A stretch of DNA of 64,000 nucleotides from Thermalbibacter longus (GTDB taxonomy: Bacteria; Chloroflexota; Chloroflexia; Thermomicrobiales; Thermomicrobiaceae), in contig NZ_JAMSLR010000001.1 in the NCBI RefSeq assembly GCF_023806485.1, forward strand, positions 248,001-312,000, written 5' to 3'. The notes under the pieces were generated by a model. The model was not told the DNA's origin. It did not search any database and was given only the letters and a program-made list of their open reading frames with translations. Made by a program: the position numbers and the translations under genes. Numbering within the stretch: position 1 is the first letter of the stretch; the number at the start of each line of letters is the position of its first letter. Below are positions 53,617-58,506 of this stretch, in pieces.

Positions 53617-54012
53617 TTACGGATGTCCTCGAAGCACCGCGGCCATGATCCGCACCAGTACCACGCCCAGCCATGCCGCTGCCAGGCCTGCGACGACCGA
53701 GCCAACCGTATTGAGCAAGAAGGGGAGAACGGCCTTGCTCTCCAGGAGCAGGAGGCTCTCGTACGAGAAGCTCGAGAAGGTTGTGAAGCCGCCGAGAAAG
53801 CCGACGGCGATGAGCAGCCGGGCTGCCGGTGAGAGATTGCCCGCCTCGAAGAGGCCGAGGATCACGCCGATCAGAAATGAGCCGGTGACGTTTATGATGA
53901 AGGTGCCGAGGGGGAAAGAGATGCCGACGTTTCGCTGGACAGAGGTCGAAGCCAGATAGCGCGCCACCGAGCCGGCAGCACCACCGATAGCCACCAAGAG
54001 CACGCCTGTCAC
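53617..54012 (-). CDS. crcB: Fluoride channel CrcB/FluC
   Basis: The GTG at 54012 has GAAGGAG six bases upstream and gives 131 residues. The family pattern is clear: VAIGGAAGSVARYLAS, PLGTFIINVTGSFLIGVILGLF, LLIAVGFLGGFTTFSSFSYESLLLL and a fourth helix. The GGFTTFSSF motif holds the pore phenylalanines and the central sodium site. As a dual-topology dimer it lets fluoride leave the cytoplasm. One crcB copy is present here, with DUF190 behind it. Confidence 0.93.
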   Translation of the reverse strand: MTGVLLVAIGGAAGSVARYLASTSVQRNVGISFPLGTFIINVTGSFLIGVILGLFEAGNLSPAARLLIAVGFLGGFTTFSSFSYESLLLLESKAVLPFLLNTVGSVVAGLAAAWLGVVLVRIMAAVLRGHP

Positions 54013-54065
54013 GCCCACTCCTTCTCGCGCCTTCTGCGTCTCACCCGAAGCGGCGCACACGAAGA

Positions 54066-54094
54066 GGCTCCTGCCCGCGCTCCGGGCGGGAGCC
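54066..54094 (-). terminator. Terminator-like hairpin in the crcB leader
   Basis: GGCTCC plus GCCCG (54094-54083) pair with CGGGC plus GGAGCC (54077-54066), giving 11 pairs and one mismatch around a five-base loop, 53 bases before the crcB start. It shares ATGGCTCC and a 15-base run ending GGGCAGGAGCC with the hairpin of the fluoride riboswitch at 58380. A possible promoter, TTGACG-N17-TACCCT, lies at 54190-54162. The aptamer half is not recognisable here. Confidence 0.5.
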
Positions 54095-54221
54095 ATGCGC
54101 GGACTTTCGGGTCGAACCGCTGCCGGTCCTGCCCGAACCGGCAACCCTGGTTGCCGGGCGAAGGGTAGCGATTGGAACGGTTGACGTCAACGCGGTCGAC
54201 CGATGGCGACTGCCAGGCCGG

Positions 54222-54740
54222 TTAGATCGCCAGATGGCCGCGCAGGATCAGGTAGCCCGGCAGCCAGGCGGTCAGGATGCCTTCGAGCAGGGTGACCGCG
54301 CCGACGAAGCTGGCGCTGAGCCGCCGTGGCACCAGGAGCAGGAAGTAGAAGAACCAGAGCACGGCCCAGGCTAACCAGTCGAGGCCTAGCCACCAGTCCC
54401 AGGCCTGCTGGGCGTTCATCAGGATTTCGACCCCGATCGGCACCGCGGTGATCGCTACGAACAGCGAGTACCATCCCAGACCTCGCCCATCGAGCTGAAA
54501 GATCCGGTTGATCGCCACCCACAGGTAGGTGAACGCGAACAGGAGCACCAGCGCGCCGAAGGCGATCTCTCCAGTGACCTCGGCGCCGGCACGGAACGCC
54601 GTGACGATGGCTGCCAGGAAGGCGATACCGCCAGCGAAGATGTTGATCACCGCAATCTCGCGGTCACCGATCCGGCCCATCAGCCAGAGGCCGTTGAGGG
54701 TGAGGACGGCGCCGACCCAGAGAAGCACGAGCCCGATCAT
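54222..54740 (-). CDS. AmiS/UreI family amide or urea channel
   Basis: This 172-residue protein has six hydrophobic helices. It opens with MIGLVLLWVGAVLTLNGLWLMGRI, continues with AVINIFAGGIAFLAAIVTAF and LLFAFTYLWVAINRIFQLDGRGLGWYSLFVAI, and ends with TAWLPGYLILRGHLAI, the layout of the AmiS/UreI channel family. GAGAGGGGG precedes the ATG. It lies 80 bases downstream of the formamidase gene on the same strand, which suggests uptake of formamide, acetamide or urea for that enzyme. Confidence 0.88.
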   Translation of the reverse strand: MIGLVLLWVGAVLTLNGLWLMGRIGDREIAVINIFAGGIAFLAAIVTAFRAGAEVTGEIAFGALVLLFAFTYLWVAINRIFQLDGRGLGWYSLFVAITAVPIGVEILMNAQQAWDWWLGLDWLAWAVLWFFYFLLLVPRRLSASFVGAVTLLEGILTAWLPGYLILRGHLAI

Positions 54741-56376: not shown

Positions 56377-56676
56377 ATGCCGCTGTACGAGTTCTCCTGC
56401 CTGGCTCACGGCTCGTTCGAGCTCCGGCGCCCCTTCAGTCAAGCGACGGCACCGGCGCGCTGCCCGCAGTGCGGCGAACTCGCTCGCCGGGTTTTCACCA
56501 GCCCGAACGTCCCACGCACCCCGGCCTGGATCGTCGAGGGCTTGACCCGCGAGGAGCGTAGCCGCCACGAGCCTCGAGTCGCGACGCGCGAGGAGATCGG
56601 CCTGCCGGCCTACGACCCGGAGGCCAAGCCACAATACCACGTGGCGAAAGGCCGGCCCTGGATGATCTCCCATTGA
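56377..56676 (+). CDS. fmdB: FmdB-family zinc-ribbon protein
   Basis: AAAGGAGG lies before the ATG. The 99-residue protein starts MPLYEFSCLAHGSFELRRPF, where C8 and the later CPQCG pair form the small FmdB zinc ribbon (one cysteine of the usual first CxxC is replaced by CLAH, a histidine). It is divergent from fmdA. FmdB was described as a regulator of formamidase expression, and this placement fits. Whether it binds DNA is unknown. Confidence 0.82.
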   Translation: MPLYEFSCLAHGSFELRRPFSQATAPARCPQCGELARRVFTSPNVPRTPAWIVEGLTREERSRHEPRVATREEIGLPAYDPEAKPQYHVAKGRPWMISH

Positions 56677-56688
56677 CGCGGGCTGTGC

Positions 56689-57114
56689 CTACCAGCGCAC
56701 GACCATGACCGTGCACGGGGCGTGGCGAACGACTTTGTCCGCCGTCGTGCCGAGGAACGTGCCCCAGACTCCTGAATGCCCGCTGTGGCCGATGACCAGC
56801 AGGTCGAACTCCCCGGCACGCGCTGTGCTCACCAGCGTCTGGGCCGAGTGCCCGACTTTGACCAGCGTATGGAACGAGATCCCTTCCTGCGCCGCGACCT
56901 GGCGCGCCTCATCGTGCAGTTGGCGATAACGCTCTTCGAGCAGGGCGCGCTGCTCGTCCACCTCCGCCACGGCGGCAGTCCAGTGAGGGATCTCGATGAC
57001 CGAGAGCGCCAAGACTTCCGCCGAGAACGGCGCCGCCAGCGCGAGCGCACGTCGCAGCGCCTCCCAGGAACCCTTGGAACCATCGAACCCCACCAGGATC
57101 TTGCGGAAGAGCAT
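56689..57114 (-). CDS. Universal stress protein (UspA family)
   Basis: The ATG at 57114 follows the antiporter stop by one base, with AGGAGAGGA inside the end of that gene. The 141 residues give the Usp fold: KILVGFDGSKGSWEALRRAL, then FDLLVIGHSGHSGVWGTFLGTTADKVVRHAPCTVMVVR, with the G-x2-G and GTTA ATP-binding pattern. It is translated with the antiporter, so it falls under the same fluoride riboswitch. UspA genes are known members of fluoride-switch regulons. Confidence 0.9.
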   Translation of the reverse strand: MLFRKILVGFDGSKGSWEALRRALALAAPFSAEVLALSVIEIPHWTAAVAEVDEQRALLEERYRQLHDEARQVAAQEGISFHTLVKVGHSAQTLVSTARAGEFDLLVIGHSGHSGVWGTFLGTTADKVVRHAPCTVMVVRW

Positions 57115-57115
57115 G

Positions 57116-58318
57116 CTAGTCCTCTCCTTCACTCAGTGACGACGACTCCATCGCCGGCAGGGTAGAAACGCTGGCCTGACCTGGCTCGCGCGCGCCGGCC
57201 GGAGCGGTTTCTGGCAGGAACCAGGTCTGCGCGATCAGCGTCGGGACAACGGCTGAGCCGATGACGGCGGTGACCAGCACGGTGTACTGCGACTGGTCGA
57301 TGAGCCCGTTGGTGAGACCGAAGAGCGCCGAGATGGTTCCGAAGGTCAGGCCGGTGGACATCAGCAGCGTCGTGTACGTCCCGCTACGTCGCTCCATGGC
57401 GAAGGCCCGCGTCAGCGGCCAGACTCCGACCAACTTGGCGACCATCTTCACCAGCAGGAAGGCACCGATGAGCGCGGCTCTGGAGATGATGGCCGGGATC
57501 GAGACGAAGAGACCGGCCTTGATGAAGTAGAACGGCGTCAGCGCCCCGAAAGCGATCGTCCGCAGCCGGAGCATCAGTGCCCGGCTCTCCTGGAAGACGC
57601 CGGCCACGACCAGGCCGATCAGGTAGGACGGCAGCACCGCCTCGCTCCCGGCGCGCGTCGCCAGCCAGCCGAGCGCGAACAGCACGAGCAGCAGGAACTT
57701 CACCTCCGGCTCGGAGACCCGGCCTCCCCAGGTCTGGATGACCCAGCGCGTGAGCCGGGGAAGCGGCCAGAGCACCAGCGCGGTGACCGCGGCGAACACC
57801 ACGAGCCAGCGGTCGAAGCCGGCGAAGATCAAGCCGAGCGCCAGCACCGTGCCCAGGTCGTTGATGAAGCAGGCGGCGAGGATCAGCTTCCCCAGCTCCG
57901 TCTGGTTCAGGCCGGTCTCGACCATCACCGCGTAGACGACGGCGACCGAGGTGGTGGAGAGCGCGATGCCGGCGATCCAGGCAGAGTCGGGCGCCCAGCC
58001 GGCGACGAAGCGCGCGAAGGCCGCCGCGCCGAGGAAGGGAAAGACGAAGCCGGCGATGCCGATCGCCAGGCTCGGCTTCAAGTGCCGGCGCAGTGATTCC
58101 GGATCGATCTCGGCGCCGGCTAGGAACGTCAGCACCACCGCGCCGATCCCGGCGAGGGCGTTGATCCACTCGCTCACCTCGAGGTGCAGGACGTTCCCGC
58201 CGAAGACGCCGACGGCGATCTCGACCAGCGCAACCGAGATCCCGAGTCGGATCGAGAACAGGCTCGCGACGAGCGCGAGCGCCATCCAAATCGCGGCCGT
58301 CCCCCAGACGTGCTCCAT
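57116..58318 (-). CDS. Cation/proton antiporter (CPA2, KefB/NapA-like)
   Basis: The ATG at 58318 has GGAGG eight bases upstream; the 400-residue protein has about twelve helices. GVFGGNVLHLEVSEWINALAGIGAVVLTFLAGAEID and ALSTTSVAVVYAVMVETGLNQTELGKLILAACFINDLGTVLALG are CPA2 signatures, with ND as the ion-binding pair. The C-terminal cytosolic tail is short and has no RCK domain. It probably exchanges Na+ or K+ for protons, or helps to keep pH balance during fluoride stress. The leader contains a fluoride riboswitch. Confidence 0.9.
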   Translation of the reverse strand: MEHVWGTAAIWMALALVASLFSIRLGISVALVEIAVGVFGGNVLHLEVSEWINALAGIGAVVLTFLAGAEIDPESLRRHLKPSLAIGIAGFVFPFLGAAAFARFVAGWAPDSAWIAGIALSTTSVAVVYAVMVETGLNQTELGKLILAACFINDLGTVLALGLIFAGFDRWLVVFAAVTALVLWPLPRLTRWVIQTWGGRVSEPEVKFLLLVLFALGWLATRAGSEAVLPSYLIGLVVAGVFQESRALMLRLRTIAFGALTPFYFIKAGLFVSIPAIISRAALIGAFLLVKMVAKLVGVWPLTRAFAMERRSGTYTTLLMSTGLTFGTISALFGLTNGLIDQSQYTVLVTAVIGSAVVPTLIAQTWFLPETAPAGAREPGQASVSTLPAMESSSLSEGED

Positions 58319-58379: not shown

Positions 58380-58461
58380 GGCTCCTGCCCGCGCCGCGAG
58401 CAGGAGCCATCAGCCGTCCGGCAGTTCGAGTCGCTATCGACTCAGGCGGGCTCCATCGCCC
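58380..58461 (-). promoter_or_regulatory. Fluoride riboswitch (crcB motif) with terminator
   Basis: On the minus strand the leader reads GGGCGATGGAGCCCGCC from 58461, later AACTGCC, then GGCTGATGGCTCC ending near 58403. This is the fluoride aptamer pattern known from Thermotoga (GGGCGAUG...GCCCGCC...CUGCC...GGCUGAUGG). GGAGCC pairs with GGCTCC to close the core. The 3' arm is shared with a terminator-like hairpin, GGCTCCTGC (58408-58400) with GCAGGAGCC (58388-58380). An extra six-pair hairpin (58443-58428) is inserted in the aptamer. It should turn on the antiporter-uspA operon when fluoride rises. Confidence 0.85.
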
Positions 58462-58477
58462 TCAGGAGTACGAGTCG

Positions 58478-58506
58478 AGTGTACTGCTCAGTAAGGCGAG
58501 CGACAA
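58478..58506 (-). promoter_or_regulatory. Promoter of the fluoride riboswitch transcript
   Basis: TTGTCG (58506-58501) and TACACT (58483-58478) are 17 bases apart on the minus strand. A start near 58470 would put the first transcribed bases directly before the aptamer at 58461. Confidence 0.5.

Follow-up and report, generated by a model that had tools for sequence, protein, structure and literature searches.

We analyzed a 64-kb window (the whole stretch of DNA under study) of the Thermalbibacter longus genome, on the minus strand of which a predicted fluoride riboswitch aptamer is followed by an intrinsic-terminator-like stem, an antiporter gene, and a universal stress protein (UspA) gene (Table 1). 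A preliminary description of this DNA had placed the riboswitch here and had proposed a covariance search with the Rfam model RF01734 (Fluoride). This search (cmscan) matched the whole model of 64 positions at a score above the gathering cut-off of 34 bits, and RF01734 was the sole Rfam family matched within the window. Scored against the entire 3.63-Mb genome, the same aptamer had an E value of 8.7e-11. The conserved blocks also ran in the order originally described on the minus strand, namely GGGCGATGGAGCCCGCC (58461-58445), a hairpin (58443-58428), AACTGCC, and then GGCTGATGG.

The antiporter gene begins 75 nt past the end of the model, and the sequence GGAGG (58330-58326) lies seven bases before its ATG. 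By its PF00999 domain, the product belongs to the Na+/H+-exchanger family, and exchange activity is predicted for it. Because the UspA ATG lies one base past the antiporter stop (junction GGAGAGGACTAGCATG), the two genes very probably share a common transcript, and a zinc-ribbon gene beyond UspA on the opposite strand (56377-56676) probably ends the operon. The order PF00999 then PF00582 directly downstream bears out the previous statement that an antiporter-UspA operon, not crcB, is under the riboswitch.

Table 1. Features of the riboswitch locus (positions within the window)
Feature	Positions	Strand	Basis or remark
Promoter-like site TTGTCG-17-TACACT	58478..58506	minus	Best consensus match upstream of the aptamer, 8/12; weak
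Fluoride riboswitch aptamer (RF01734), predicted	58394..58469	minus	cmscan, 44 bits, E 6.6e-9
First hairpin, stem GGCG/CGCC, loop bearing GGAGCC (pseudoknot 5' half)	58445..58460	minus	Rfam alignment; pairs intact in 16/16 relatives
Inserted hairpin GAGTCG-ATAG-CGACTC	58428..58443	minus	Insert relative to the Rfam model; six pairs covary
Short third helix GCC/GGC	58413..58422	minus	Rfam structure line; 100% of cells paired
GGCTCC, pseudoknot 3' half and first six bases of the terminator stem; putative switching strand	58403..58408	minus	
Intrinsic-terminator-like stem, 13 pairs, tail TTCGCTTTCC	58380..58408	minus	-26.1 kcal/mol
Antiporter gene, 400 aa, ATG 58318	57116..58318	minus	Pfam PF00999, E 1.9e-36, 126 bits
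Universal stress protein (UspA) gene	56689..57114	minus	Pfam PF00582, E 1.5e-31

Conservation among relatives

We compared the locus across an order-level sample of 41 genomes (40 relatives and the genome itself), which contained 31 fluoride riboswitch matches. In 8 of the 41 genomes, we identified an antiporter orthologue; when positions were compared, a fluoride riboswitch lay directly upstream in all eight, and UspA was the next gene in all eight. Among 120 fluoride riboswitches collected from Chloroflexota, 24 had a related antiporter downstream (with UspA next in 10), and the remaining ones preceded crcB, MFS transporters, CLC, DUF6062 proteins, and others. The antiporter target had been implied to be novel, which did not hold: PMC11139923 (citing Baker 2012) gives Na+/H+ antiporters as the most common fluoride-riboswitch genes after exporters. 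Additionally, uspA of Enterobacter cloacae belongs to an operon with a fluoride riboswitch and was induced 120-fold by fluoride (PMC5533749). As both links are already known, the arrangement is of a known kind.

Paired back-to-back fluoride riboswitches approximately 330 nt apart were observed in two relatives (G002:C58:3803-4280, L013/L036; G003:C110:32179-32650, L010/L037), one directed toward the antiporter and the other toward an MFS transporter; the genome of the window is without the second riboswitch of such a pair. Genome-wide, one further RF01734 match exceeded the cut-off in T. longus. This second fluoride riboswitch (C23:371517-371596; L002 1501-2779) precedes a gene for a DUF6062-type protein with cysteine pairs. 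Proteins of this type came next after about 15 riboswitches in the Chloroflexota sample, and our literature search found no paper linking fluoride riboswitches to DUF6062.

Aptamer structure and the inserted hairpin

Covariation was assessed in 16 aptamers from the family and its neighbours. Pairing over the whole structure was 96%, compared with 30-54% in slid controls. The pseudoknot between the first-hairpin loop and the 3' strand comprised six pairs, with 100% of cells paired and none broken, and three of them (columns 17/73, 18/72, and 21/69) showed double changes between G-C or C-G and A-U or U-A. Furthermore, the aptamer together with the terminator folded much better than shuffled sequences (z = -4.05; 0/200).

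Relative to the RF01734 model, the alignment has a 15-nt insert after the first helix and ahead of the AACYGCC block, and the hairpin at this position is 16 nt long. The preliminary description had proposed an extra six-pair hairpin in the aptamer, and all six pairs were changed on both sides among the 16 aptamers (88% of cells paired). Such compensatory changes at every pair indicate a real, selected helix. Conversely, its implied novelty failed, as the insert proved to be a frequent option: among the 114 Chloroflexota riboswitches that could be parsed for it, 73 had at least 10 nt at this site, and the lengths were bimodal (0-9 nt in 41, 12-37 nt in 73). The insert was present in 23 of the 24 Chloroflexota antiporter riboswitches and in many riboswitches of other genes. 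When GTDB genomes were scanned for the exact pattern, similar inserts were found in aptamers of Bacillota, Actinomycetota, and Thermococci among the matches listed; the Thermococci fluoride aptamers L093, L097, and L113, also among the matches listed, had a short hairpin at the same site. No published description of the optional hairpin was found in the literature text searched.

The inserted hairpin would lie outside the binding core, where it most likely only stacks alongside or aids folding. Alternatively, it may be a functional addition, for instance an extra module for sensing or tuning by which fluoride affinity or the rate of folding is set. Its retention by compensatory change across the family is consistent with such a role, as is the observation that 60 of the 73 inserts folded better than 95% of their own shuffles, where approximately 4 were expected. 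However, sequence, loop, and length are unconstrained, no conserved loop or internal bulge was seen, and more than a third of the parsed Chloroflexota members of the same class (41 of 114) do without the insert. We consider a functional module unlikely; judged from these sequence features, the inserted hairpin looks like a structural spacer.

Expression platform and predicted switching

The terminator-like stem, with G-C at 10 of its 13 pairs and a 3-nt loop, is the strongest such stem in the region, and the U-tract after it is weak (TTCGCTTTCC). Its first strand overlaps the 3' end of the aptamer through GGCTCC, which is common to both, in agreement with the shared 3' arm and ON-switch layout claimed earlier. 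Since the pseudoknot and the terminator both need GGCTCC, they are mutually exclusive, as in the known ON-switch layout. A terminator that overlaps the motif has been interpreted as an ON switch (PMC2864571), and this layout of fluoride riboswitches is also given in PMC13273304. The promoter-like site upstream of the aptamer fell below the threshold of our promoter scan (9/12).

In the mechanism that we propose, GGCTCC (58408-58403) would pair with the far terminator arm in the absence of fluoride, and transcription would end ahead of the antiporter gene. When fluoride and Mg2+ are present, GGAGCC in the first-hairpin loop would capture GGCTCC as a pseudoknot, so that the terminator could not form and the antiporter-uspA operon would be transcribed. 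The antiporter would then most likely restore pH and the ion gradient once HF entry acidifies the cell. With a probability of roughly 0.95, we interpret the locus as a transcriptional riboswitch of the RF01734 class that turns on the antiporter-uspA operon. Its class and anatomy are shown by the sequence analysis, whereas the ligand response and the role of the antiporter would be those expected of the class, and we infer that the leader RNA actually switches. The weak U-tract and the promoter match of only 8/12 count against this interpretation.

The weak U-tract also favors another outcome, in which the aptamer is intact and the switch acts otherwise or not at all: if the stem were too stable or the U-tract too weak, the leader would be near-constitutive or would act at another level. 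A 2026 screen that used E. coli polymerase in vitro scored as functional only 323 of the 1901 fluoride riboswitch sequences tested (17%), and class membership is therefore no guarantee of a measurable switch in that assay (PMC13273304). Nevertheless, the arrangement and the shared arm were kept in all eight family members despite differing stem sequences, and the strands overlap as they do in the known mechanism, making altered or absent switching quite improbable in our judgment. The probability that the locus resembles a fluoride aptamer only by chance is practically negligible. Nothing was found to support this explanation; the GC-rich genome yields some short partial matches, all with E values of 0.26 or worse. 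The locus, by contrast, matched the full model with an E value of 6.6e-9, with synteny and covariation in relatives.

crcB and fluoride exporters

A single crcB gene (53617-54018, minus strand) is present in the genome, 4.3 kb downstream of the riboswitch. Its leader contains a promoter-like site, TTGACG-17-TACCCT (region 53617-54190, minus strand), and a GGCTCC...GGAGCC stem (GGCTCCCGCCCGGAGCGCGGGCAGGAGCC, 54094-54066) nearly identical to the riboswitch terminator; a whole-genome pattern scan found only these two stems of the kind. The crcB leader folded better than shuffles (z = -2.96), and its stem and the riboswitch terminator are probably related by copying. A search of 53900-54300 against Rfam to an E value of 5 recognized no fluoride aptamer at crcB, returning only unrelated weak matches on the other strand. 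With no Rfam match and no GGAG-type partner seen for GGCTCC, we rejected a working RF01734 riboswitch of crcB itself. When 158 genomes of the class were searched at the DNA level for the crcB leader, the matches were limited to the terminator-like hairpin in antiporter leaders and to chance-level hits.

Regarding known exporters, a profile search did not find Fluc (PF02537) in the relatives G001, G002, G003, and G005, and in G016, where Fluc was sought by a protein query only, no close Fluc was found. CLC (PF00654) was not found in G001, G002, and G016. G003 and G005 encode CLC proteins that exceed 600 aa and have an ordinary GREGP motif, and the riboswitch-linked CLCs L025 and L029 have GNN and GREGT, motifs that we take to mark the fluoride-type CLC. 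These five genomes carried several fluoride riboswitches, with no recognized Fluc and no fluoride-type CLC. Completeness was 99% for G002 and G003 and 96% for G005. Several antiporter-carrying relatives seem to be without a recognized fluoride exporter, although such an absence carries little weight in draft genomes. If Fluc and fluoride-type CLC are missing, the work of the exporters would have to fall to what these riboswitches control, be it antiporter, MFS transporter, or DUF6062 protein. It is conceivable but doubtful that fluoride tolerance in this bacterial family depends mainly on the riboswitch-controlled antiporter, which would perhaps itself move fluoride or HF-derived protons. Riboswitch-linked antiporters have long been listed and little tested; if the antiporter is truly the main fluoride defense where both known exporters are missing, its role becomes directly testable. 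The locus itself offers a well-formed fluoride riboswitch from a thermophile, with an optional hairpin backed by covariation, and the covarying site would be useful when choosing insertion sites in engineered switches.

Comparison with known systems

The antiporter shares the PF00999 fold over 350 residues with NapA (PDB 4bwz; E 3.4e-7) and with the CPA2 subfamily TIGR00932 (E 1.8e-32). Its TIGR00932 score of 112.9 bits is below the curated cut-off of 238.3 bits, and by this profile comparison it is related to CPA2 but not counted as a member. In an alignment by eye, its Lys-295 corresponds to the conserved Lys of NapA, whereas it has Asn-Asp (153-154) where NapA has Asp-Asp. The operon of Enterobacter cloacae FRM (ppaC-uspA-eno-gpmA-crcB-orf5249; PMC5533749) likewise places uspA under a fluoride riboswitch, but it includes no antiporter, and the operon described here is without ppaC, eno, gpmA, and crcB. 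Finally, the predicted aptamer resembles the crcB motif (RF01734) in its core hairpin with a GAUG loop, pseudoknot, third helix, CUGAUGG block, and overlapping terminator, and differs in the hairpin at the insert position of the model, as do many other members.
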